DNA from: Rhexocercosporidium sp. MPI-PUGE-AT-0058
Lineage: Eukaryota > Ascomycota > Leotiomycetes > Helotiales
Length of the DNA stretch: 64,000 nt
Reading direction: 5' to 3'
NCBI GenBank assembly: GCA_020746875.1
Contig: JAGTJL010000015.1
Location: forward strand, 2,016,825-2,080,824
Shown: one piece after another, positions 22,254 through 56,041 of the stretch
How the letters are laid out: each line of letters begins with the position of its first letter
Position numbering within the stretch: the stretch's first letter is position 1
The notes under the pieces: generated by a model
Told to the model about the DNA's origin: nothing
Seen by the model: the letters and a program-made list of their open reading frames with translations, nothing else
The model's database searches: none
Made by a program: the position numbers and the translations under genes

Positions 22254-23041
22254 ATGTCCGTCGCCGAGGCCATTGGCCTCATTTCGGGCGTGATATCAAT
22301 CATCGAGGCAACTAAAACAGTGTATGATGCCGCCAAAGACGCGAAAGGCCAGCCAGAGGCATTCCGCCAAGTGACTGAACGACTGCCACTCGTTATCGAA
22401 ATCCTTCGCAGCGCTGAAGAGAGGGCATCGGCGCTCGACGAGACGGCACTGGATGCATTGGAGCACACTCTAGAGTTATGCAAGGCGAAGGCTGAGAACC
22501 TCAAGAAAATATTCCAGAAGGTTATTCGGAAGGATGATGACAAGTGGTACGACCGATACAAGAAGGCCGTAAGTACGGTAGGAAAAGGGGAAACAGTGGA
22601 GTGTTTGATGGAAGGGATATTGAAAGACATTCAAGTGCTTGTATGCGAGAGGCTGAATGGAACCGCTATCGAAGCCCAAGTAAAGGAGATCGAAGAGGCG
22701 ATCAAGCAGATGAACGAAATGACATCCTCTCTCCCAGATGAGGCCAGGGCTGTCCAGATACCTCCCGTACCCAATAGAGAAGATACTGATGCAACGTGAG
22801 TGCCGCTTTATTTGAACTCGACGCGTCTGGAGAAATGCACTACAACTGATGCAGATGAGATTATCTGAGAAATGGCATTGAGCAGATCATGCAGTCGCCT
22901 AAAGATCTCAGTAACATTGACATGAAAACGGTAATCTCTTTCATCCCCACTTCTTATTGGTTAAGTCTGACAATTTTTGTTCCGGCGCAGTACATGGGAC
23001 TTTATAAGCAAGCATCTCCTCAGCTGGTTGGCCTATGTTAG
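22254..23041 (+). CDS. SesA/NACHT N-terminal domain protein, stand-alone
   Basis: Exon 1 (22254-22795) starts MSVAEAIGLISGVISIIEAT and reads through about 130 residues as the alpha-helical SesA-type domain that usually sits at the N-terminus of fungal NACHT and P-loop NTPase receptors (Pfam SesA). No NACHT, lipase or other partner domain follows. The open frame would stop at 22797, but that stop lies in a splice donor (AC|GTGAGT). I propose intron 22796-22869 (CTGAT branch, weak GAG acceptor), exon 2 at 22870-22930, intron 22931-22990 (GTAATC ... CTGAC ... GCGCAG) and exon 3 at 22991-23041. This gives about 217 residues ending QLVGLC. The second intron is convincing, the first acceptor less so. 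The protein may be an adaptor or signal-transmitting partner of a STAND receptor; that role is inferred. Confidence 0.8.
22796..22869 (+). other. Proposed intron 1 of the SesA-type gene
   Basis: Donor GTGAGT, CTGAT branch-like word near 22846, acceptor GAG at 22867-22869. This acceptor is the only one nearby that restores a frame into exon 2. The acceptor is non-optimal. Confidence 0.5.
22931..22990 (+). other. Proposed intron 2 of the SesA-type gene
   Basis: 60 nt, donor GTAATC, branch word GTCTGACA, acceptor GCGCAG, phase 0. Confidence 0.65.
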
Positions 23042-24128: not shown

Positions 24129-26192
24129 TTAGACCAACAGAAACTCCTCATGGTCCTGCGAGGGTGAGGAGGTGCATGCTGACTCGTAGACGACAACTGC
24201 CCAAAGTTAGCATTCCCGAAAAGCGATGAGCTGGAAGTGTCTCGACTTACAAGCTTGTCCCACCAGAACAAACCCTTCGTCATACCTCCGGAGAACGAGA
24301 GGATGGAATGCCCCAGGAATGCTAGCAATTAAATCGCCGGGCTTGGAATCGCTAGGGAAGAGGCCCAAACACCCATTCTCCGAGAAGCCCAGGGAACGGC
24401 CCACCGCGTGCTTCCTCATCGCGGCGTGGATCTTGTTGTACGGGTGGGGGACAGTGTTGTGGAATTCGGACGGGATGAGGTAGGTTTTGTGCCTGTCGTC
24501 GGGCTCTTTGAATGCGCCCTTGGTGAACCTTTCTTGCTTTGGTGGTAGCAAGGTGCCATCATCAGCGTAGGCGAAATCGTGTTTCTCAGTGCGGATAGAT
24601 ATAAACTGCAGCCACCCGTTTCCGTTATGCTCTGACAAGATAGAACTCTTCATGAAGTGCTGGTAGCTGAAACCTCGCCTATCCTCAAAGCCGGGTGTCT
24701 GCGAGAAGGTCCTCCACTGTGTGTATGTGTCCTGGAGCGTGGCGATGGTATCGTTCTCACCGACCACCGCAGGGCACAAAAGAGCAATGGTGCTAAACGG
24801 AGCTCCCTTGACAGTTAAGGTCTCTGCATTGTCTGCACCGCCAAATGCAATATCAACTGCGATCGTTTTCATTGTTGACGACCATCCATCTTTCTGAGGA
24901 AGCGGCCGTGCCTTCCAGTAGTCTATGAGATTGGGAATCCACGACGGCAGACCGTGGTGTCTGTCCGGGTTTTGCGCCGCTCCGAGAATATCCAATTTAG
25001 ACGTCTTGAAGATGATCGCCTTTGTGGCGGCAATTAGTACCTGGCGCGCCTGGAGCCGGTAGTCCGGCGCGAGGCCGTAAACGTCCGGGTCCGCCATTCC
25101 CAGCATGGCAAACACCTTGTCTCGCAGGTCAGTGGCCCGGCACGTCCTTCCGAGCAAGATGAGCTGTGCGAGATCTGTGTATTTGTACCCGTGACTGGTT
25201 TCTGAGCGCAGACTATCTAGATCCTGAATGTGAGCGTGGCGCACGCCAGACAGCTGTTGCTCCTGGGCCGGCTCCTGCTGATTTCCGAGATCCGGTTCGA
25301 AGCCCGTCTGTAACTTTAGGGTATCGATGACCTTGGCAACGTAGACAAGATGGTGGAAGTAGCAAGCTGCTATTCCACAGCGGACCACGATATTATGATT
25401 CAGCGCGACCTCCTGCCGGACCCAGGCGCGTTGCCACCACGACCTCGCAAAAATGGCCGCGAGGGCCTTCCAGTTCTTGCGTCTCTCATCATCCGTGGCG
25501 ACAAGGGGCGGCGGGGCCGGAACTCCAGGGCCTCGTCGGGGCGGATCCTTCTCGAGCTCGACGGCCAGCTTGAAAGTGGCTTCGCTGTCGTCTGCTTCTT
25601 CGCCGAGCCAGACCTGAACTCCTTCGGCACGGTGATAGATGCGTCGCATCACGGCCACCTGGGAATTGCGCTCGGCAATGTCGGCCTGGTTGATGCACAC
25701 GGCGTCGATCCACCAGTACCATACGGATGGCGCAGCGAGATGGTATGGACGGTCGATGTTGGGGTCGGGATCCTTGCGCAGACTTAAGAGAGCCTCCTTG
25801 AGGTTCTTCGTGACAGGGAATTTGTGGCCATCGACCTGGATAGACTCGTCGAATTGGGGCTCTCCCCATGTATACGAAAGCGCCTTAAACCGGGATAGCG
25901 GCTGTCAGTCGGGGTGGGTAGGCGGGACGCTGAATTTGTTGTCGAGATTCACATGGATCAAGTTGCAGTCGACGACGTCGGAATCAGCCTGGCTTGCCGT
26001 GACCCTGAGCAGCCGGATCTCAGCCTTGTCCGTCGCAAGGGGTCGGTATTTGTACGGACCGGTTTTGATCGTCGGATCGGCTACGGGATCAGAAGCGGCC
26101 ACGGCTGCGGCTGGCGGAAATGGAACCTCGGGCATGATGAGACCCAGGTGCGAGAGAATCCGGTTCTCTAGCGCCTTAAGGCGCGCTGCCAT
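24129..26192 (-). pseudogene. HET-domain (heterokaryon incompatibility) gene, interrupted
   Basis: One reading frame runs from ATG at 26192 to the terminal exon, broken only by TGA at 25905-25907 (codon 96). Before it: YKYRPL and IRLLRV, typical HET leader. After it: FKALSYTWGEP, KNLKEALLSLR, WWIDAVCINQADIAERNSQV, WLGEEADDS, the conserved HET core, then RAWVRQEV, RDKVFAMLGM and LPSWIPNL. A clean 54-nt intron (24250-24197: GTAAGT ... TGCTAAC ... CAG) joins GQA to a final exon ending at 24129. The HET domain triggers incompatibility cell death when activated by a partner. The TGA is one C-to-T step from CGA, as RIP would produce. A transposon (26238-28422) sits 46 bp upstream of this ATG and appears to have separated the original start. 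It is likely non-functional unless TGA is read through or is a sequence error. Confidence 0.85.
24197..24250 (-). other. Intron in the HET gene
   Basis: 54 nt, donor GTAAGT, branch TGCTAAC, acceptor GGGCAG. Removing it extends the protein by 22 residues (…GQAF… to …FLLV) instead of stopping within the intron. Confidence 0.88.
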
Positions 26193-26237: not shown

Positions 26238-28422
26238 ACCGGGTTCCCGCCTAAAATCCCACCCCTGTTATAAACAGTGTGAGCAAAATTAATCATATAA
26301 ATCAATTAATATTTGATTAATTTGATTTGATTTGATTTGACTTTGATTAATTAATCTAGATTAATTTGATTAATGACTTTTTTCTTTCGATATTTATATA
26401 TAATATAAGAATAGATTAAATTAGCGAGTATTTTAATAAATAATAAATGGATTTAAAGAATAATCAACTTATAAACTACTTGATTAAATAAATAACAAGT
26501 AAAAACCTGTTGAATTCTTTAAATTAGTATTTAGAATTTGCTGACAAATACAAACACTTGCTTATAAATAGGCTTTCTATTAATAAAACCTTTTGCTTTT
26601 CCATCTTAAAACGACTATATTATTACTAGGTTATTAATAAGGCTTACTAATCCAATATCAATCACTAATTAAGTGTTATAAATTAAATAAAATATGTTTC
26701 TTACTTTATTTAGGTTAAGCGAGGCTCTCTGAAAAAAGAGATTTGGTGTGAATGATGATTCCATTACTTCGGGGGAAACTAGGTCTATATAACTACTTTT
26801 AGGCGCCAAGCTATTTAGCTCTCGCATCGGCTATTTGCTCTCGCATCGGCTATTTGCTCTCGCATCGGTTATTAGCTTTATATTGAAACTAGCTTTATAT
26901 TAAGACTAGCTTTATATTACCAGAGCTTCCGAGGTTTAAAACACGGAAGCTTAAGGCTTGATGAAGCCACTGTTTTAGCTCTGAATAACCCTTTACTGAA
27001 AGCTTAAAGCTTCCGAGGTTTAAAGCACGGAAGCCGAGGCTTTATACGAAGCCGGAGCTTTATGCAAAGGTAGTTGAGTTATGGAAAGGTATGCTTAATA
27101 TAATCTTATATTATTAAGCGAGTTTAGCCGAGGCTTAATATAGTCTTATACTCTCTAGATTAACCGAGACTGTTAGACTTTAATTGATTCTATTATTAGT
27201 ATATACTAATCTTCTTTAAGCTTAGTTTTAAAATCTAGTCCCAATTAGGATGCGGCTCTTATATTAATCAAATTAATCAATTAATACTTGATTAATTTGA
27301 TTTGATTTGATTTGATTTTGATTAATCAAGATTTTGCTTGATTTGAATATGATTAATAGCCATTAATCAAATCAAATCAAATCATTTTTCACACTGGAAC
27401 TTATAAATCCCGCGATTTACACCAAAATCCTACATTTTTGAATATTAATAAAACAATAACCACGAGACTTATATTTATGAAAATTAAAATATAAGTTTAT
27501 CTGTGTATAAAAAATATAAATATAATATTTTAAATGCTTAAAAACGTCTTAAAAGTCTATAAGAAAAGCTTAAAAACGCGATTTTTGAGCTTTATTTAAA
27601 ATTAGAGTAATATACGTTTAAGTAATTCTAATAATAAAATAATTATAAAATCTTATATAGAAAAGCTTTAAAATATTTTTCGTATAAAAATAAAGTGTTA
27701 TATGTAAGTATTTAAGGTTTAAGAAAATAAAAACCAATTTTTATTAAATTAAGTTTATCTTAAGATAAAGAAACCTAGTTTATATTTTTAAAGTTTTTAA
27801 ACTTAATTTAAGTTCTAAAGATCCTTATATAAGTAATATATTATATAAATATGCCTTTAAAAAAGTAAAAAATTGATAGTATATATTTCGGCTTATTTAT
27901 TTTTAATATATATTATTATAAAGTCAATTTTAAAGGCTTTTTAAAAATTTAAACTATGAAATGTAATAATCTATCCTAGTAAGCATTATTTTAAGTTTAT
28001 AAAATAAAATATCTTTTATCAAGATTATAAATTCAGCTCAAAAAATTCAAGTAGCATTATTTATTATAATATCCTTATATTTTCCTCCTAATATCTAAGT
28101 TTAAGTCATAAATAGCTTTTAAACTATTATAGATTATATATAGCTTTATACTTTATGTTTAAATTAACTTTTGTAGTTAATATTTAAATAAATTTAAATA
28201 ATCTAAAAACCCGAAAACTTAATCCAGTTTTATACGATAATAAAAGTCTATTTTTAGAAATATTAAGCCTTAATATTAAATACCTAAAAACTAGATTATT
28301 TATAATTCAAAAAGTAAGTTTATAGCTCTTAATATGCAAAAGTTATCGCCGTTTAAAAACGTGCAATTTTGGTGGTAAGGTGGGATTTATAACAGGGGTG
28401 GGATTTTAAGCGGGAAACCGGT
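26238..28422. mobile_element. TIR DNA transposon inserted at the 5' end of the HET gene
   Basis: Inverted termini ACCGG(G/T)TTCCCGC(C/T)TAAAATCC... match over about 37 bp and weakly further (together with a TTATAAATCCC word), with TA on both sides (26236-26237, 28423-28424). The interior is AT-rich and non-coding, and a second, hAT-like element (26275-27396) is nested just inside the left terminus. Without that insert the element is about 1.06 kb, a non-autonomous or decayed member of a TA-targeting superfamily. No transposase was seen. Confidence 0.85.
26275..27396. mobile_element. Nested hAT-like non-autonomous element
   Basis: Starts CAGTGTGAG and ends TCACACTG. Both ends carry subterminal runs of TTGATTTGATTTGATT and its complement. 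TTATAAA precedes the left end and follows the right end within 4 bp, an imperfect target duplication. The middle (26800-27060) holds short GC-richer repeats of GCATCGGCTATTTGCTCTC and GCTTCCGAGGTTTAAA words. Confidence 0.65.
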
Positions 28423-28439
28423 TAGTTTGTAGAAACAGA

Positions 28440-28442
28440 CAT
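28440..28442 (-). other. Probable original start codon of the HET gene
   Basis: Conceptual removal of the TIR element and one TA puts this minus-strand ATG in frame with the HET sequence: six codons (28442-28425), one junction codon, then 14 further open codons to the present ATG at 26192. No stop occurs in the join. Confidence 0.6.
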
Positions 28443-29576
28443 TTCCAATGCCAGTCAGTGCTCGAGCGGGGGGGAAAAGCAAAATCAAAACAAAACTCGG
28501 GAGAGAGAGAAGCAGATTTTTTGGCTCAAAGAAAGATGAAAGAAGCAGTGTCAACTTGGACTCTCCTCCTATATATGAACGCAGTACAGCCCCTGAAGCT
28601 ACAGGATCGGGGGTGGCCAAATTTCGATTTACTGCACAAGAGGTGCTGTGGCGCCGAAAAATAACATTCGCTCTCGAAGTCCATTGGACGAAATAAGAAC
28701 CCGAAATATCAAACCTCGCTGCTGCATTAGTGCCTCACTCCCTTTCCAAAATCTAAAGGTTGTCAAGATGTTTGCTATGACCCCCAACTCAGGGGGAGGA
28801 TGCTGAGAAGGAATATCAAGTAGGAGCCAGCCTCAGCGCATCTATTGCGCCTCTGATTGGCCCGTCCGAGGCGCGCCCCCTGCTGCAGCCACTGTACGAA
28901 ACATCAACCAAATTCCTGAATTCTTTGACGGACGGCGTAATTTCGCTTATATAATTATTTGCAAGTTCGTCAGCTTGTAGGTTCTACTTTCCCAAAGCTG
29001 GAGTGAACGGCACACTTTTGGAGTTGACCAATAAGTCTCCGTGGAGTTATCGTTAGGTTAATATAAGCTTTGATTGGAGATGTAGCGCCACGTTCTGCCT
29101 TTTCTCTACAAACTTGCAGATACTTGAAGCAGGCTCTGTAATCGAGGTCTGATTCCACTGGTTTGGCTTGTTTGTAGTTCTGCCGACCAGCTTTCATTGG
29201 AAGAGCATGCATCGCAGTCGTATCACAAACCGTCTTGGCACCATTGCGCGTGACGTGATTTCTTTCCTACTATTTGCTGCCATCAAAGGAACGCTTGAGC
29301 TGAGGGACATATCACTAATGGATATCAAAGCATCTAACCTAGCCAGTCCCTATACTATTTGTGTTATTCCCACTGCACCTTCTCCCCTCACATCTAATAC
29401 CCGTCCCCCTAAATCTCCTTTCTATATCCTTCAGTCATCTCTATAAAGACAAGTCAAACGGCGAGGCAGATATGATACGTGGAATGAAGCCAAGAGTTTT
29501 ACACAAGATCGAAGTCTAAGAAATGAACACCAGGGCAGGAAAGGTAGAACTAGTACCCATTGTTCGCAGTCTCTAT
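28443..29576. other. Intergenic region between HET and CHAT genes
   Basis: GC near normal, probably promoter sequence of the original HET gene at its left end and 3' flank of the CHAT gene at its right. Several 70-90 codon frames on both strands have no recognisable domain and overlap one another. I see no supported gene. Confidence 0.5.
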
Positions 29577-32500
29577 TTAGGTATCTGGTTTTCTAAAAAC
29601 TGACTCGATTTCCTTTCGACTGAAACGGAATTTCCAATTTCCATGCAGCACAAACAAAGCCCAGAAGTATGGTAGTGAACGTTGCTTTCTGATATCCAAG
29701 ACCGCTTGACGGAGAGCTAGAGCAACATCTAAAACAATCACATCATGGTCATTTTTGCTCAGAAGTTCCTCCGCTTGGGTTTTTAAAACATCGTAGAATA
29801 CTTTGGTGAATAATTTCCCTGCAGCGTCTGAACATTTCCACAAGGTCCCTATGGTCGCATTTACACCTGCAAGGAGAAGCATTGGAAGCAATCCGATGGG
29901 CTCCTCGCCAGCATTGATCTCCTGTTGTGCGGATTCGCAGGCGATCATGACAAAAAGAGCGATGCCAAACTTCATTGTGAGAAGCTCCCGTGCAGTCAGA
30001 TCTCCGCTGTCCAGAGCTTCGGTTGAGGGCCGGTGAAGCTTCAAGGCTGAGCGGAGAGGATCCATAGAGTCAAAGAACGCATGGCCATGATAGTGAACAA
30101 TAGAACTCGTCTCTGATTTCTGTTTAAATGCAGACTTGGTTGCTGCATCCCTCACAAGGGGCTCAACATGCCAAATTTCGCCCAGCGACTCTGAGGACTG
30201 CTCAGCCTCAACCCTATCACCACTGGGATTTCCGAATATTGCTATTTTGCTGAGATCTTGGATGTTGTCCGCGCGCCTGAGACAATGATGAAGGACGGAG
30301 AGGCTCGAGGAATATACCACTGGATTTCGTTCAAGGAGCAACATCCCTTCGCATTCAAGAGCATGGAGAGGGAGGGCAGAAAGCAGGCTGGACGGGCAGA
30401 AGACGAGTAATTCGTCTTTCTTTGAGAGCTCTGATAAGGGAGTGACCAAGGGGTCCAGCTCCCTCAGCCTTTCGTTTGCTCGTTTCTGACGCATGTACTC
30501 TGCCTTCAGATTCGACCCAATCCAGGAACTGACCTCAGGTTTCGTGATGGCAAGCTTATGAGCAGATGGTTGGTGTCCAGGCCGAACTGTTATCATCCAG
30601 ATGGAATCGCCCACAAGAGCCCAGTCCACGCACAATACATCCTTGCTCAAGCCAAACATTCCAGGAAGACGTTGGAGCGAGAGTGCTTCTGCGCCGCGAT
30701 AGAGTTGAAGATTGTAAAGCTCCGGTATAGATATGAGCTGACGGCGAATCTCTGAAATCCGCTGGCGGATTGGAAACCGTCTCTCGGGCGAAGCTGCCTC
30801 GCAGTCTTGTAACAGTTTGGTTTCAGTGTTTAAAAGCTCTTTTCCCCGTTCAGTTGCCATCGCCGAGGCCATAATCATCGTGGGGACATTTTCATTTCCT
30901 TCAAGTCCCAGGAGATCCAAAAAGGCTCTTGCTTTGCCCCGTTGTATCCACTGCCAGGCCTGAGCAGAGCTGTTCTGAAGCAAACTGAGCTTGACGCCAA
31001 GTTCATACAAATCCGCATTTTGGGCTACAAGTGTTCGGTTATGAGTGAGGATTTCCTCGTCTTTCTGGATTGCCATATCGGCGCGGACACCATTTCTGAT
31101 GTCCTCTGCGGCTTCCAGTTGTTCCAACGCGTGCACAAGTGCGTCTTGTTGGCCGAGCTCGTATGCACTTTGCCATATCCAAGCTTGCTGGATGTGGCAC
31201 CGAGCCAGCTGGAGTCTGAAATCCGACTTGAGCAACGCATCCTGTACCTGTTGAAAGTTCTTCAGGGACTCGTTCAGGACTTCCGCAGCAATTTCAACGC
31301 CCAGCCCTGCGGAAAGCCGAGACTCGTAAACAGTAAGGAGTTGGAGCTGGCCGATACGATTCTGCATGTGTGTTGCTTGCCGCTTCTCTCCCGCCTGTGT
31401 GAAAAGCAACTTGGCAAGCTCTACGTAACCAATGGCCGTCGGGTAGTCCCCAAGAAGATAGAATGCCTCGCTTGACTTGAATTTGATTTCCGCAAGATTT
31501 GAGATGCGGTTTTGCTCTGGAAGGAGGTTCACCAGACGTTCAGCCTTTTCGAGCCAGTCCAGGCACTTTTTGGACGCGCCTTGCTTGTCCACGGAATCAA
31601 TGCGGGCAGCTTGTAGGATTTCAGTGTTCGAGAGAAGGCCATACTTGTCTATTCGATCTTCTTCATTGCCATTCTCGCCATCAATCTCGGCCCATTTGGC
31701 CAAGAGAGACACGAGCTCTCCGAAATATTGAATGGAAAGATGGGTGGTAGACTTCAGCCTGTCACGCATAGCAAGTGCTAATCCCTTAGCCGCCTGGGAG
31801 CCTAGGACAATGTCGTTCTGGGTTTCCGAGATGCAAAGGGCTTTTCGGCCCCAGAGTAAAGCATTCTCCCAATCTTTCAGCTGCTGGTAGTTGGTGCAGA
31901 GTGAAATGGCACATGGAACAGCCAGCTGAAGCATCTGCATTTCCTCAGCTTTTGAGAAGAGTGATTTGAAGCCTTCGAGAGTTGCAGCGAGATGGCCGCC
32001 CTGCATAGCCGCAAGGTTGAGGATCCCAAACTGGTGGTGGCACCATTCCAGATTTGAACCAATTGAATTGCAAACCTCTTGAAGCTGAGCTGAGACCCTT
32101 GAGAAATCAGGATACCGACGGGTTTCTCGGTAGAAAATAGTCAGCCTAGTGAGGACCAAGCTCTCGTCGTTGGGAGATTTGAGCATCTTGAAGGCTTCCG
32201 CGAGCCTTTCGAGAGCAGCAAGATTCTCATCACTCAGGTCTCCTGGCTTGCTCTGATCCAAATCCTGCAGCATGTCTTCCAATTTTGCCGCTTGCTCTCG
32301 TAGAGAGAGGTTCATTGCAGAAAACACGCCTCGTACCTCCTGGAGCAATCGCCTGGCTTCTCGATATCGTTTTTGAGCCCGGGCAATTTTCGAACGTTCA
32401 AATACAGCAATGGCGGAGAGGTATTCTGTGCTGCCAACTTGCAAGAAACTGGACAGTTCCGCATCTGCACGGGTGTTGTCGAGGAGGAATAGTCGATAGT

Positions 32501-33053
32501 GAAGCATATCCCATGCAGTACAATGCTCACCCATCTCACCCAGATGTAGTTGCGCTGACTTCATCCTCGCGTTGAGCCCAACCTTGAAGCTACTTTCTAT
32601 GCCGTGCGTATATTGGGCATACTTTTGAAGCAGGAATGTGATATAAGCAAGGTACAACAGGGTCCAGCATCGAACATTCGATATATTGTCATCCCAATCG
32701 GCGGCATCTTCTAATATCTCGTTCCAAGTCGAGATTACCAACTTCTGCGCTCCATCTAACAGTCCCCGTGTCTCAATTTCCGCAGCAGCTAATTGCAGTT
32801 GAAAGACGCGCAGCTGGTCCTTATTCAGCTCTGAGAACTGGGCCTTGACGACAGGCTCCAAAGTCTTCACCACACGATTGCGATAGCCTTGCACAGTGAG
32901 CAAGTGGCACTTTTCGACCAAATTGTCAAAACAATTTAGGCTTTGTGACGAAGCCTTCCCCAAACAGCTCCATGCTTCTTCGAAGCGACCTGTCGAGCGG
33001 AGACGCATGGCCCTGTGGATATGGGTCTCCGGATTTCGAGGTGTTGAATGCAT
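29577..33053 (-). CDS. TPR-CHAT caspase-like protein
   Basis: Intronless, 1158 residues. Residues 1-750 are helical and repeat-like, with TPR-style A/G/Y/A spacing (for example residues 340-420 and 520-600), ending in the AWQWIQRGKARAFLDLLG motif that often precedes CHAT domains. The C-terminal CHAT domain (about 850-1150) carries the clan CD protease dyad: His in HYHGHAFF (H991) and Cys in IACESAQQ (C1039). GIGTLW-type strands (TIGTLWKCSD) and a C-terminal LPYFWALFVLHGNW block match the family. No signal peptide or membrane segment, so it is probably cytosolic. Both catalytic residues are present and the frame is undamaged. In fungi such proteases can act in regulated cell death; the substrate is unknown. 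The divergent neighbour at 33352 is the obvious candidate. Confidence 0.9.
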   Translation of the reverse strand: MHSTPRNPETHIHRAMRLRSTGRFEEAWSCLGKASSQSLNCFDNLVEKCHLLTVQGYRNRVVKTLEPVVKAQFSELNKDQLRVFQLQLAAAEIETRGLLDGAQKLVISTWNEILEDAADWDDNISNVRCWTLLYLAYITFLLQKYAQYTHGIESSFKVGLNARMKSAQLHLGEMGEHCTAWDMLHYRLFLLDNTRADAELSSFLQVGSTEYLSAIAVFERSKIARAQKRYREARRLLQEVRGVFSAMNLSLREQAAKLEDMLQDLDQSKPGDLSDENLAALERLAEAFKMLKSPNDESLVLTRLTIFYRETRRYPDFSRVSAQLQEVCNSIGSNLEWCHHQFGILNLAAMQGGHLAATLEGFKSLFSKAEEMQMLQLAVPCAISLCTNYQQLKDWENALLWGRKALCISETQNDIVLGSQAAKGLALAMRDRLKSTTHLSIQYFGELVSLLAKWAEIDGENGNEEDRIDKYGLLSNTEILQAARIDSVDKQGASKKCLDWLEKAERLVNLLPEQNRISNLAEIKFKSSEAFYLLGDYPTAIGYVELAKLLFTQAGEKRQATHMQNRIGQLQLLTVYESRLSAGLGVEIAAEVLNESLKNFQQVQDALLKSDFRLQLARCHIQQAWIWQSAYELGQQDALVHALEQLEAAEDIRNGVRADMAIQKDEEILTHNRTLVAQNADLYELGVKLSLLQNSSAQAWQWIQRGKARAFLDLLGLEGNENVPTMIMASAMATERGKELLNTETKLLQDCEAASPERRFPIRQRISEIRRQLISIPELYNLQLYRGAEALSLQRLPGMFGLSKDVLCVDWALVGDSIWMITVRPGHQPSAHKLAITKPEVSSWIGSNLKAEYMRQKRANERLRELDPLVTPLSELSKKDELLVFCPSSLLSALPLHALECEGMLLLERNPVVYSSSLSVLHHCLRRADNIQDLSKIAIFGNPSGDRVEAEQSSESLGEIWHVEPLVRDAATKSAFKQKSETSSIVHYHGHAFFDSMDPLRSALKLHRPSTEALDSGDLTARELLTMKFGIALFVMIACESAQQEINAGEEPIGLLPMLLLAGVNATIGTLWKCSDAAGKLFTKVFYDVLKTQAEELLSKNDHDVIVLDVALALRQAVLDIRKQRSLPYFWALFVLHGNWKFRFSRKEIESVFRKPDT

Positions 33054-33351
33054 CTTTGATGTTTACACAGAGCTTACAGAACAACAGTCTGGACAATAGT
33101 CTGGATAACAGTTTGCACAACAATCTGGACAACAGTGTGGATATGAAGATAAAGAGCTGACGAGACAGGAAAAAAAGCAAACAATGTAACACAGCGTGGC
33201 GCAACAAGCCTATCGACGCGATGCGGGGTAGCTTCAGCTCGCACTTTCAGCTCGCAACCAGCAAATGCAAACCATCGTCCAAACACTCCTTTGACCCCCC
33301 AAACAGCTACATCATTCCAGCCCTTCTCCGGACCGCAGACTTCTCTAAATC
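33054..33351. promoter_or_regulatory. Shared divergent promoter of CHAT and small beta-rich gene
   Basis: 298 bp separate the two start codons, so both promoters and 5' leaders must overlap or abut here. It contains a 12-bp minisatellite (33081-33140) close to the CHAT start and a CT-rich stretch just upstream of 33352. No clear TATA box. Confidence 0.6.
33081..33140. repeat. 12-bp minisatellite, five units, in divergent promoter
   Basis: Units of ACAACAGTCTGG with one to three changes each start at 33081, 33093, 33105, 33117 and 33129. Confidence 0.88.
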
Positions 33352-34107
33352 ATGGACTTTACCAGTGATTCGTCTCTCGAGTGGGAATTGGCCTTTGAGC
33401 CAGACCAAGATGCCGAAGAAGAACTTGCCGGCGAAGAGGATGGGACAGTTGACAAGGCTCTCATCACCGACGAAACTATCAGGAAATGTCGCATCTTAGC
33501 CTCTGTACAGTCCATAGAGTACGGAGAGACTGAGGTCACCCCTGGCCAAACGAAGCCTGCAGCGCTGCTCGTTATCAACTTCCACTTCCACCCCTTTGAA
33601 TCGCGAGTCAAGGGAGCGGATGTCGAACTCGCCTTCAACAACAAAGCAACAATCGCCCTTCTCCAGCCTGAAAGCATCAATGACTCTGAGAGCGAGGAAA
33701 CGATTCGGCACAAACTGTACGCAGAGCTAAGTATTGGCTACCCGCCAGCCGGGGTCGACGCCAAAGCTGGCAGCGAGCGCGAGACTGAACGAACAAAGAA
33801 GTTTGCCGAGCGGATCAGGGGCTCGGGAATCAGCTCGAGCCGCGCAACTTGGACGTTGAGGGAGAACCCGCAGGCACGCGATGGCATACATTTGCGGTTT
33901 GTGGGAGTCCTTGTCATAAAGGCAGAAGGGGAGTTGGAAGTGGACGTTGAGATACGGGCCACGATCGGTGCAAAGCTCGACGATCCGCTGGGCATTCGTA
34001 AGATCATTGCAACGCAGACGAAGAAGTTTGATGGGAAGAGCCTCCTTGGTAGAAGACCTCTGGCATTAGATATCGAAGAGGGTCTTTTCAAAGCAAACGG
34101 CAAGTGA
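33352..34107 (+). CDS. Beta-rich protein of unknown function, CHAT neighbour
   Basis: 251 residues, single exon. An acidic N-terminus (EPDQDAEEELAGEEDG) precedes alternating hydrophobic strands (AALLVINFHFHPFES, VELAFNNKATIALL, YAELSIGYPPAG). A charged helix-like linker follows (ERETERTKKFAERIR), then a WTLRENPQARDGI motif and more strands (LRFVGVLVIK, ELEVDVEIRATIG). I recall the FHP ... WTL-EN---GI pattern from uncharacterised ascomycete proteins but cannot name a family. No signal peptide or transmembrane helix. It is transcribed head to head with the CHAT protease across 298 bp. Fungal gasdermin-like effectors are of similar size and often sit beside protease genes, but I see no diagnostic gasdermin motif, so that role is only a hypothesis. 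Confidence 0.75.
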   Translation: MDFTSDSSLEWELAFEPDQDAEEELAGEEDGTVDKALITDETIRKCRILASVQSIEYGETEVTPGQTKPAALLVINFHFHPFESRVKGADVELAFNNKATIALLQPESINDSESEETIRHKLYAELSIGYPPAGVDAKAGSERETERTKKFAERIRGSGISSSRATWTLRENPQARDGIHLRFVGVLVIKAEGELEVDVEIRATIGAKLDDPLGIRKIIATQTKKFDGKSLLGRRPLALDIEEGLFKANGK

Positions 34108-34647: not shown

Positions 34648-35774
34648 TCATCTAATCTCTCCTGTCACAACACTTTCATTTCCACCCTCCAACTCGGCCA
34701 ACGGCGCCTCACCGTTTGAAACCCCCTTCCTCCCTATCAATTCCTCGGGATGCACCACATGGAATACCACCATAACACCTAACATTACGCTGCATCAAAC
34801 GCATATAAAAATACCTCGTTCGAAACCAGCTTCCCATTATCCCCTTCCGCGAACTCAAAGATACGGAAAATAGACCGGATTAGAATAAGCGAGCTTGCAA
34901 CGTAGAGTGTCCAGAGGTACTTCTGCCAAGGGGCTTGGAGGGAAGCTGAGGTAGGTGTAGAGGCTATGCGCCGGTGGGAAATTGCGCTAGTTATGATGAA
35001 GATGCCAAAGAAGATTATTTGGAGGGCAAGGCCGACTATGACGACCTTTTTGCCGAGGTTTCGAGTAGATGACTTGGCTAGCATTGACCCGCTTATATTC
35101 ATATCGTTAGTCTAGTACCACGAGATATATTATTAGTAGTAACATAAGATGGCCATTAAAAAGTAAGAAGGAGCGCGACTTGCCCACAGCTTGCACAATG
35201 AACGTGAAAACATCGCCAGTAACGAAGATCTTTGTTAACCAATTTGCGCGTATAGGGGCTACGCTTTCGCCTTTCGTGTAGAGGATTAAGCAACCTAGAA
35301 CCATATAGTCACTCGCTGCGAAGAGGGAAGGTGGTAGGAAGAGCAGGAGCGTTTGCGCAACATAGATGACCATGCTATGGATGTGAAAGTGGGCTAGGAT
35401 GCGAACGATGTAGCCTGTCCATTCGACTGCTCGCCTGTTAGTAAGATAGCTAGGTGTATCCAGATAGGATAGAGCTAACACACCCCGCCTATTAGTAAGA
35501 TAGCTAGGTGTATCCAGATAGGATAGAGCTAACACACCCCGCCTATTATAAGAGGTATGAAGTAGAATGTTCGCTTTGTGAAGGCTTGCCAACAGTGATA
35601 TGCCGTAGTGCTGAAGAAGAGGACGATGAAAACTATAGCAGCTGGAATAGATGGATCATAGCTGTGATAGTTAGTAAGGGATGAACCAATTGGTGCGAGC
35701 TATTTGAATACTGACTTAAAGAAAGAAAATTTTTCGTCACGAGTGCCAATGGCAGAACTGGGAGAGATAGTCAT
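34648..35774 (-). pseudogene. RTA1-like seven-helix membrane protein, frameshifted
   Basis: Exon 1 (35774-35716) starts MTISPSSAIG. A 54-nt intron (35715-35662, branch TTACTAAC, CACAG) leads to exon 2, reading YDPSIPAAIVFIVLFF and AFTKRTFYFIPLIIGG, the RTA1 helix 1-2 region. An intron lying in a tandem duplication (about 35537-35435) leads to exon 3 (EWTGYIVR, APIRANWLTKIFVTGDV, VQAVG). A third intron (about 35179-35092, branch GACTAAC, odd donor GTCGCG) leads to the last exon (KKVVIVGLALQIIFFGIF, ILIRSIFRIFEFAEG, EVFLYAFDA). There a one-base loss near 34787 puts the remaining conserved part (MLGVMVVFHVVHPEEL) in another frame, ending at 34648. RTA1-family proteins are fungal plasma-membrane proteins linked to lipid transport and drug tolerance. 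The frameshift probably truncates it, though a sequencing error is possible. Confidence 0.8.
35432..35539 (-). repeat. 54-bp tandem duplication of an RTA1-like intron
   Basis: Copies 35432-35485 and 35486-35539 are almost identical (CGCCTGTTAG against CGCCTATTAG) and a third partial start follows at 35540. On the minus strand each copy carries the GGCGGGGTGTGT donor side and a TACTAA branch plus AG, so an intron of about 49 nt plus 5 nt of exon was doubled. Confidence 0.88.
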
Positions 35775-53353: not shown

Positions 53354-56017
53354 TTAATTAGGAATATTATAGAGCTTGCTCCTAGTCTTCCTCCAAAAGC
53401 CCTCACGTTTAGGGAGGAGTTTCTCTCTCTGCTTCATCTCTGATTCATTCGCTGTAGAGTATTGATTCCGCAGCGAAATTAATCTCATTCTGAATTCGAT
53501 TGTTGAGCAGTAAGGCATCCATTCACTTTCATCAGGGAAGGTCAACTGTTCACTTTGCTTCCATAGCCACTTAAAGAGCTCTAGGTTCCCTGCTTCTGCT
53601 GCTACTCTGAATGTTTGGCCAACATCAGCGAATGATATCATTTGGACACGGGATGCGTAGTCCCTGAAAGATTCGCTGAGGCAGGATGATGCACTCGTGG
53701 TTTCGGTACATGTAACAGTCCAGTGAAATGATTCGGCGAAATGGACTCGAGATTTCAACCGTTGTTTCCAAGGAATACCACTTGGGCTTTCAGTCTTCAT
53801 CCATCTATTGGCCGCATGGTCAAGAAGGAAGAGAATAGAGAAGTCTACTCTTCCTCCTTTGTTTTGAATCGCTCCAAAAGAACTGAGACAATTTCTTCCT
53901 GCATGCCCAAGGGCGCTTAAAAAGTCACCAGAGTCAGGATCCAAGGTTTTGATGCGATGCAAGAATGCTCCAACGAGGGCAAGATGTGCGTTGAAGTTTG
54001 GATCGGCTGAAGAGATGATGAAGTTCCACATATCAGGCTGTAAAATAAAATCCTTGACGGTCCGGTGAAGATACGAAACTTTGGCATGCGCGCCATCGGT
54101 TTTGTAAGACGGTGCTTCTAAGAGAAGCTGACAACGACTGTTGAGGCGACGCCGCATATTATCCGCTCGAAACTTGACTTTTTCAGAGGGCATGGTTCCG
54201 AATTCAGCTTGGATAGCCTTCTCCAAACCATCCTCTGCCAGGTCAAGCGTGAGTAAGGTCAGGGATTCTTGTGCAGCTTGAATAAGTTGAAATAACCTCG
54301 ATGTCTGCGTGCGGTGATCTGTGTCCACATGATCCAGTATTTTGCGGAAGAGATCGTCCAAGTCCTCGGGCAATCTTTGGAGCCGATCGTGGAGGTCCGT
54401 TATCTTGTCTCCGTCTCGAAGTCCATCCAGCAATGACCGTACAACAATACGCACCCACAGGAAAACGCCATTCGCTTTTCCAGTTATCCTCGTGGCTAGA
54501 CCTTGCGCTTCAAACGGTTCAAACTCTAGTAGCTTGATGAAGAGTTCATTGGAATTAAGTATATCAGAGACATATTTAAAAATGTCTAACCGGGTGAGCT
54601 CTTCCATTCGTAACGAAGGTATGCGCTTGAATGTGTCCTCGAAAACATTCCAAGGGCGACTGGAGGCACATATCTTGATATTTAGCCCTGAACGCGAAAT
54701 TCTGTGGACAAATTCGGCGATCCCTAGAGGGTCGTTATCGACTTCATCCAGACCGTCGATGAAGATGAAATATTTGGTGGACTGATCCTCCAGGAGAGTC
54801 GCAAAAGCACTGCTAAGCTCCGACCATGACCACAGACGAGAATCACCACCAAAGAGTTCATAGTATTTCCAACGATCTGGAAACAGATGCGGAATGAGGC
54901 AGTTACGATCACCTATCAATGCATAGAGCAGTGATTGCAGCAGACCGAGTCGTGACATCTGCATAGTTGTTCCAGAATTCCAGAAAAAGAAGCTTGCAGT
55001 GCGTAGGGGACTATCGCCAGCCCAAAGTCGCAAGGAGTGATCGGTGCGGCCGTCGTCACACAAAAACTTCATCAAGGTTGATTTTCCAGAACCTGGTTTT
55101 CCCGTGATCCAGTATAGGCTTTCCCCGCCTTGGAGCCAATGGAGATAGCTGTCGCAGTTGGCTTGCGAAAGATTACTGGGCTGATTCGACTGTGAGATAT
55201 CTCTGGAGAAGACCCACTCAAACGTTTTGGTGTGCGCTTCTGGGATGGTCGCATGGCGGTCTTCCATGGATTGGAAACGCAATTTCGCTAAGATTTTCGA
55301 CGTCAGAACATTGTCTCTTTCCCCCTTCACGGCGGCTGACAGCTGCGAGGAAAAGGTGTGAAGATCGTCGGCATTACCAACTTTCCAGTCGTTTCTCTGG
55401 AGGTTGTCGAGAACCTCTGCTTGCCATTTTTTGGTCCCATCAATGAATCCAAGAAGTTGTTGGCCAGCTTCATTTTTGGAGGATCGTCCGAATCCGAGAT
55501 TGTTGCTTGTGATGTTCTCTCTCAACAATAGAAGGAGCGTGGTATCGATTTGGCGCCTGTAACGTTCCTGTCGTTCAGATAGGTCCTTGATCTTCTTTTC
55601 CTCCCAGATGCTTTTCAGAGCTTGGCGAAAAGAATTCCATCTCTTATTGGCACCTTCGAGTTTGAGTTCTCTAAGAGCATCGACTAATTGTCTTGAAGTT
55701 CCTCGGCAGCCTTGAACGAGCTCCGTAAGAGTTTCTTCTGTCGACTGCGATTTTGCCGTGCTCTGAGAGCTTTTCTGAGGTTTGCTTGGCCACACACGGT
55801 GTATATCCACTGGCTGTTCGTGGGCAGATCCAATGAATAGTAGTCTACTGGTAAGAGCATTAAGGTTTCGTGTAATAATTTCTAGTTCGGCGTGTTCGAC
55901 GAGTATGCCATCCGCGGAATTATAAATCTCGCGACCTCTGTCAATCAACTCCCCTGTAAAACTAAGAAACTGCACTATGTTCGAAGCAAGTGACAACGCA
56001 GTAAGTGGGTCTAGCAT
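53354..56017 (-). CDS. NACHT-domain STAND (NLR-like) receptor
   Basis: Intronless. I take ATG 56017 as start (MLDPLTALSLASNIVQFL, the usual N-terminus of fungal STAND proteins); an ATG at 56041 would add eight residues. Numbering from 56041: residues 9-200 helical Helo/PigL-like N-terminal effector-type region; residues 260-300 linker (HATIPEAHTKTFEWVF); NACHT core with Walker A GKPGSGKST (314-322), Walker B FIFIDGLDEVD (425-435) and an ICASSRPW motif near 460. A long helical region with a YLHRTVKDFI block follows; no WD40, ankyrin or TPR array is visible. Such proteins oligomerise on activation and trigger incompatibility or defence cell death. The frame is undamaged although AT-rich transposons flank both sides. 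Confidence 0.92.
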   Translation of the reverse strand: MLDPLTALSLASNIVQFLSFTGELIDRGREIYNSADGILVEHAELEIITRNLNALTSRLLFIGSAHEQPVDIHRVWPSKPQKSSQSTAKSQSTEETLTELVQGCRGTSRQLVDALRELKLEGANKRWNSFRQALKSIWEEKKIKDLSERQERYRRQIDTTLLLLLRENITSNNLGFGRSSKNEAGQQLLGFIDGTKKWQAEVLDNLQRNDWKVGNADDLHTFSSQLSAAVKGERDNVLTSKILAKLRFQSMEDRHATIPEAHTKTFEWVFSRDISQSNQPSNLSQANCDSYLHWLQGGESLYWITGKPGSGKSTLMKFLCDDGRTDHSLRLWAGDSPLRTASFFFWNSGTTMQMSRLGLLQSLLYALIGDRNCLIPHLFPDRWKYYELFGGDSRLWSWSELSSAFATLLEDQSTKYFIFIDGLDEVDNDPLGIAEFVHRISRSGLNIKICASSRPWNVFEDTFKRIPSLRMEELTRLDIFKYVSDILNSNELFIKLLEFEPFEAQGLATRITGKANGVFLWVRIVVRSLLDGLRDGDKITDLHDRLQRLPEDLDDLFRKILDHVDTDHRTQTSRLFQLIQAAQESLTLLTLDLAEDGLEKAIQAEFGTMPSEKVKFRADNMRRRLNSRCQLLLEAPSYKTDGAHAKVSYLHRTVKDFILQPDMWNFIISSADPNFNAHLALVGAFLHRIKTLDPDSGDFLSALGHAGRNCLSSFGAIQNKGGRVDFSILFLLDHAANRWMKTESPSGIPWKQRLKSRVHFAESFHWTVTCTETTSASSCLSESFRDYASRVQMISFADVGQTFRVAAEAGNLELFKWLWKQSEQLTFPDESEWMPYCSTIEFRMRLISLRNQYSTANESEMKQREKLLPKREGFWRKTRSKLYNIPN

Positions 56018-56041
56018 AGTGAACGAGATGGTCGTAAACAA

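Follow-up and report, generated by a model that had tools for sequence, protein, structure and literature searches.

In CRISPR TPR-CHAT systems, a repeat-bearing CHAT protein is linked to a neighbouring effector. The fungal protease–pore pairs treated in the available parts of two reviews use gasdermins: approximately 80% of fungal gasdermin genes cluster with protease genes and 19% with CHAT genes, and Podospora provides a case in which a gasdermin is activated by its TPR-bearing CHAT protease (PMC10197012, PMC12881547). Here, we describe a gene pair from Rhexocercosporidium sp. MPI-PUGE-AT-0058, located in a 64-kb stretch of DNA (the window; C7:2016825–2080824 of a 62.7-Mb genome in 60 contigs), in which a TPR-like/CHAT cysteine protease gene adjoins a gene for a small protein with a predicted leukocidin/alpha-haemolysin-type fold. 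We consider it probable that this pair constitutes a compact unit of regulated cell death in the fungus, in which the CHAT sensor-protease would cleave the haemolysin-fold pore former. As in the Podospora anserina TPR-CHAT protease/gasdermin and HET-Q2 (subtilisin)/HET-Q1 pairs, an ascomycete multidomain protease-sensor stands next to a candidate pore former of about 250 residues. Unlike in the fungal CHAT–gasdermin clusters, the predicted fold of the small protein is leukocidin/alpha-haemolysin-like, and gasdermins are found neither by profile nor among the listed fold matches. The linkage of a repeat-bearing CHAT protein to an adjoining effector is also shared with the bacterial TPR-CHAT effectors and the bacterial gasdermins with protease neighbours that appear in the available review text (PMC10197012, PMC12881547), whereas the organism and the neighbouring gene differ from those of bacterial TPR-CHAT systems.

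As claimed in an earlier note on this DNA, two intact open reading frames (ORFs) lie head to head at 29577–33053 (minus strand) and 33352–34107 (plus strand), separated by exactly 298 bp (33054–33351) that we presume to serve as a shared bidirectional promoter. The first runs from ATG to TAA as a single uninterrupted frame encoding the 1,158-residue CHAT protein, and the second, from ATG to TGA, encodes the 251-residue candidate pore-forming executioner. The pair goes beyond chance ORFs because the small ORF has 25 relatives and the CHAT gene nine close ones. The CHAT (caspase-like) domain spans residues 872–1139 (29637–30440, minus strand) and matches Pfam PF12770 with an E value of 5.8e-37 and 128.1 bits against a curated cut-off of 24. 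A TPR_2 match upstream of this domain (E 1.6e-4, 22 bits) falls below its cut-off of 27; thus, of the “TPR-CHAT protein” proposed earlier, the CHAT part stands, whereas the remainder is TPR-like and sub-threshold. Both putative catalytic residues previously pointed out, H991 (codon at 30081–30083, minus strand) and C1039 (codon at 29937–29939, minus strand), are present and are kept in 8/8 relatives extending that far; the ninth aligned relative, P0035, ends upstream of these positions. From this sequence we infer a putative protease.

The search for CHAT relatives scored the 7994 candidates sharing most words with the query. Among the matches listed, nine proteins form a tight group with 53–99% identity, the closest named member being from Cadophora sp. 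MPI-SDFR-AT-0126 (99% identical), and 11 further CHAT proteins show 23–30% identity over partial length. Two of these distant proteins carry organism names, one of a Pyrinomonadaceae bacterium and the other of Penicillium argentinense. P0038, the sole protein with a bacterial name among the CHAT matches listed, covers 64% of the query at 24% identity.

The predicted model of the small protein bears out its earlier description as beta-rich. In Foldseek searches with two models, all 50 rows listed for each corresponded to haemolysin/leukocidin-type entries, including Epx, NetB/NetF and gamma-haemolysin. A fold search of BFVD yielded nothing below an E value of 1e-3. The predicted core, residues 8–233, aligned with these haemolysin-type entries at 5–14% identity in the listed alignments and, as in bacterial alpha-haemolysin/leukocidin pore formers, it contains a flexible stretch at the place of the pre-stem. 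This putative pre-stem (residues 112–147; 33685–33792, plus strand) is the sole internal stretch with a predicted local distance difference test score below 50; the Aspergillus model shows low confidence at the matching place, and in both models the stretch lies between two core strands. This is approximately the position of the haemolysin pre-stem, the part that turns into the barrel. The predicted models present a core fold with a putative pre-stem of the leukocidin/alpha-haemolysin type, and the small protein probably acts as a pore former in the manner of leukocidins.

Within the putative pre-stem, analysis of the beta-moment in 11-residue windows delineated a candidate amphipathic hairpin at residues 122–141 (33715–33774, plus strand), composed of a strand, a proline turn and a second strand. 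Family-averaged hydropathy alternates at residues 117–131, where the beta-moment reaches the 89th–90th percentile of the windows of the protein, and more weakly at residues 129–145 (73rd–81st percentile), with the proline turn between the two arms. This predicted pattern is compatible with a short membrane hairpin below a soluble upper barrel. Since soluble beta-sandwiches alternate too, the amphipathicity of the stem is suggestive at most.

The small protein belongs to a family of its own. A single-sequence search retrieved 26 proteins including the window protein (25 relatives at E ≤ 0.01) and a profile search extended the family to 36 proteins, whose named members come from Coniosporium apollinis, Aspergillus udagawae, A. 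fijiensis, Fusarium falciforme and Hyaloscypha hepaticicola. Searches of Pfam, NCBIfam, PADLOC and PDB sequences with the small protein returned chance-level rows only and no significant match, and in pattern-based scans, no relative of the family was identified on viral or prokaryotic contigs. The gene is present in one copy in the source genome, with no paralogue detected using the window protein (E ≤ 0.001), P0023 (E ≤ 10) or DNA. Conservation was analysed in alignment A3, which omits P0001 (the window protein itself) together with P0017, P0018, P0025 and P0026, whose sequences are truncated or frame-disturbed, and in A4, which adds P0047–P0050 to A3 and omits the short P0051–P0056. Both alignments define a conserved acidic N-terminal motif at residues 10–26 (33379–33429, plus strand) with an invariant EEEL, and across 26 aligned sequences RGSG is also invariant and the C-terminal tail (residues 227–251; 34030–34104, plus strand) is conserved; the latter may represent an inhibitory or cleaved segment. 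In 11-residue windows over the first 50 residues, the maximum mean hydropathy was 0.27 in the window protein and 1.32 across the 26 sequences. Based on this low N-terminal hydropathy, no signal peptide is apparent in the family by this crude test, which did not involve a dedicated predictor. Unlike bacterial leukocidins, the small protein is fungal, adjacent to a protease gene and devoid of a visible secretion signal or a Leukocidin Pfam match, and its family conserves an acidic N-terminal motif and a C-terminal tail of its own. By the tests run, its sequence places it outside the Leukocidin family.

The association of the two families in other assemblies was addressed by comparing the sizes of the contigs carrying 34 small-family proteins with those carrying the nine close CHAT proteins, with the 11 distant CHAT proteins as a control. 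This set omits P0001 (self) and P0051 (contig not given), and the contig used for each protein was the longest one of its cluster at 90% identity. Contig sizes coincided exactly in two pairs, P0009/P0032 (352,735) and P0021/P0033 (7,219), and in none with the distant CHAT proteins. Because of these identical sizes, the two families likely share a contig in two further assemblies, which is strong but indirect evidence. In the second of these, P0021 stops after 164 residues as though cut by the contig end, which is compatible with a head-to-head order there. With regard to conserved adjacency, the two families stand together in the window and appear co-located in two assemblies; most of the sufficiently long CHAT contigs are unmatched. 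Partners can be hidden by the clustering at 90% identity, by introns, by contig ends and by the candidate-limited CHAT search.

Several observations weigh against a haemolysin-type pore former controlled by its protease neighbour. The models are of moderate confidence, and the two are not independent of each other because they draw on largely the same multiple sequence alignment of 22–26 sequences. Query-normalised TM-scores were low in both fold searches (0.24–0.44). For the second model, the top VIA row had a root-mean-square deviation of 6.2 Å over 184 residues. Residues 142–152 are strongly charged. Neither the window protein nor any of the 22 aligned members matched the Leukocidin profile (PF07968) at E ≤ 1; a whole-genome search with this profile gave no match in the source genome or in any control genome, and this latter result is not evidence of absence. 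Among contigs of 4.7 kb or longer, only 2/8 with a close CHAT protein also carry a listed small-family protein, and conversely 2/17 with a small-family protein are matched to a close CHAT protein. P0028, a CHAT protein with 83% identity, lies on a contig of 6,874 bases without a listed small partner. Finally, a haemolysin-type fold is not proof of pore formation.

Starting from the intact genes, the CHAT domain, the conserved catalytic residues, the similarity of the predicted fold, the conservation of the family and the partial co-location, we propose the following mechanism. The TPR-like/CHAT protein would be a cytosolic sensor-protease and the small protein a cytosolic, normally silent pore former with an alpha-haemolysin/leukocidin-type fold. 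Upon a trigger, for which non-self fusion, infection or other stress are candidates, the CHAT domain would cut the small protein, probably in the variable N-terminal linker (approximately residues 27–33) or in the conserved C-terminal tail. The freed small protein would then oligomerise on the fungus’s own membrane, where the hairpins of residues 112–147 would open into a common beta-barrel, and the cell would die. That the protease cleaves or otherwise controls its neighbour, as the earlier note had suggested, is what we too infer. Its broader idea of a protease with a small pore former survives the test set for it, because the predicted fold is of a membrane-pore type and the families apparently share contigs in two further assemblies; the gasdermin analogy attached to that idea is not supported by the listed fold matches. 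More tentatively, and as something we can envisage without yet leaning towards it, ascomycetes may have another kind of lytic death that is triggered by proteolysis and needs no gasdermin, in which a caspase-like CHAT sensor licenses a cytosolic alpha-haemolysin/leukocidin-fold executioner against the cell’s own membrane.

The literature would have led to the expectation of a gasdermin at this position, and the earlier note had accordingly compared the small protein with a gasdermin-like substrate. This identity was unsupported by Pfam and by two fold searches. Neither the window protein nor any of the 22 aligned members matched Pfam Gasdermin (PF04598) at E ≤ 1, a result that is weak taken alone because the profile may fail to recognise divergent fungal gasdermins; the whole-genome search with PF04598 gave no match and is not evidence of absence, as one control alone responded, below the cut-off. 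Likewise, none of the 50 rows that each fold search listed was a gasdermin, and the same applies to the VIA lists. A divergent gasdermin in an ordinary CHAT–gasdermin cluster, with the haemolysin match reflecting a shared beta-rich character, would agree with the published two-gene organisation and with the length of 251 residues, close to the 244 and 257 residues given for RCD-1 in the available text of PMC12881547. However, with the Pfam profile unmatched and all 50 rows of the capped list for each model of haemolysin type and none a gasdermin, we consider this explanation highly improbable. An even more remote explanation is that the small protein is a secreted offensive cytolysin to which the protease gene is merely adjacent. 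Bacterial proteins of the haemolysin fold are secreted toxins, but 26/26 sequences lack an N-terminal 11-residue window above 1.32 in hydropathy (a measure taken with no signal-peptide predictor), the conserved N-terminus is acidic, and the two families apparently share contigs in two other assemblies.

Two further alternatives retain the fold. The pairing and the fold would appear identical if a haemolysin-fold pore former were controlled without proteolysis, with the CHAT protein binding and silencing it in a guard or immunity role or acting on another substrate of the same pathway, and a fungal gasdermin, RCD-1, is described as not controlled by cleavage in the available text of PMC12881547. 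Both CHAT catalytic residues are conserved, however, and CHAT control of fungal gasdermins is described as proteolytic in the accessible parts of the reviews (PMC10197012, PMC12881547); we regard this alternative as unlikely, albeit the least so of those considered. Nearly the same standing, marginally lower, is given to a beta-sandwich serving a non-pore role as an adaptor, regulator or protease inhibitor. Fold does not equal function, the hairpin arms are partly highly charged and their alternation is unexceptional within the protein, whereas the core match including the flexible pre-stem position in two models and the amphipathic alternation at residues 122–130 and 133–141 argue for a pore former.

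If the proposed protease-triggered haemolysin-fold unit is correct, the same circuit has evolved, or been rebuilt, with another pore fold, which would point to a constant protease-sensor and an exchangeable pore. In addition, eukaryotic cells would contain, as a self-directed executioner, a fold known best from toxins that bacteria secrete. The terms “hemolysin” and “leukocidin” were not found in the available parts of PMC10197012, PMC12881547 and a fungal NLR survey, PMC9815663 (the spelling “haemolysin” was not searched), and no title or abstract opening among the matches listed from the open-access literature described a fungal protein of the leukocidin fold, or one paired with CHAT. The small family offers a new query for hidden cell-death modules in fungal genomes, and this small two-gene system with uninterrupted frames is open to direct experiment.

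The source genome contains eight CHAT matches, including that of the pair. The surroundings of the other seven (7.5–9.5 kb each) were viewed as lists of ORFs of at least 130 residues without intron models, and in these lists a similar head-to-head small ORF occurred at 1/7 loci, on contig C23 (L014:4078–8681). There, a second TPR-CHAT gene of 1,144 residues (minus strand) lies 308 bp from a 286-residue ORF (plus strand; L014:7821–8681), for which Pfam, NCBIfam, PADLOC and PDB gave no significant match. Possibly, this ORF encodes a partner of the gasdermin type, in which case two different CHAT pairs would occur in a single genome. Its sole paralogue (C33:112368–113120) is 22% identical, carries two internal stops and lies in a stretch with a GC content of 0.35; no protease was recognised beside it in the ORF list by eye, and no profile search was run. 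On C45 (53500–70500; L011 and L012), two divergent CHAT genes adjoin a Peptidase_C14 (caspase-type) ORF, forming a caspase-like gene cluster.

The pair is of higher GC content and is bordered by AT-rich stretches. Its two ORFs have GC contents of 0.50 and 0.54 and TpA/ApT ratios of 0.46 and 0.53, whereas the corresponding values are 0.20–0.29 and 1.09–1.39 in five AT-rich stretches sampled in the surroundings. The second index of repeat-induced point mutation (RIP) type was low (0.29–0.54) in 4/5 of these stretches and 1.06 in the nearest one (26300–29000). The earlier statement that most other genes are broken, which was partly checked, holds in part: AT-rich stretches surround the pair, but a NACHT-type frame (53354–56041, minus strand) and a SesA-domain frame (22254–22799, plus strand, near the pair) are open. 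The former spans 895 codons from a first listed TTG start and has matches of the NPHP3_N/NACHT type and to DUF7791, along with a SesA match below threshold, indicative of an NLR-like STAND gene; a HET-domain ORF is also located near the pair (24207–25700, minus strand). By their predicted domains, the higher-GC block around the pair is home to several immunity-type genes. Rfam at gathering scores identified nothing within the 64-kb window. The intergenic region of the pair contains 5.1 copies of a 12-bp tandem repeat (33081–33141; Tandem Repeats Finder). Beyond the small gene, an RTA1-like ORF (35107–35592) is directly followed by a second hydrophobic ORF in another frame (34785–35102), possibly its continuation, within an overall stretch of 34785–35592 on the minus strand.
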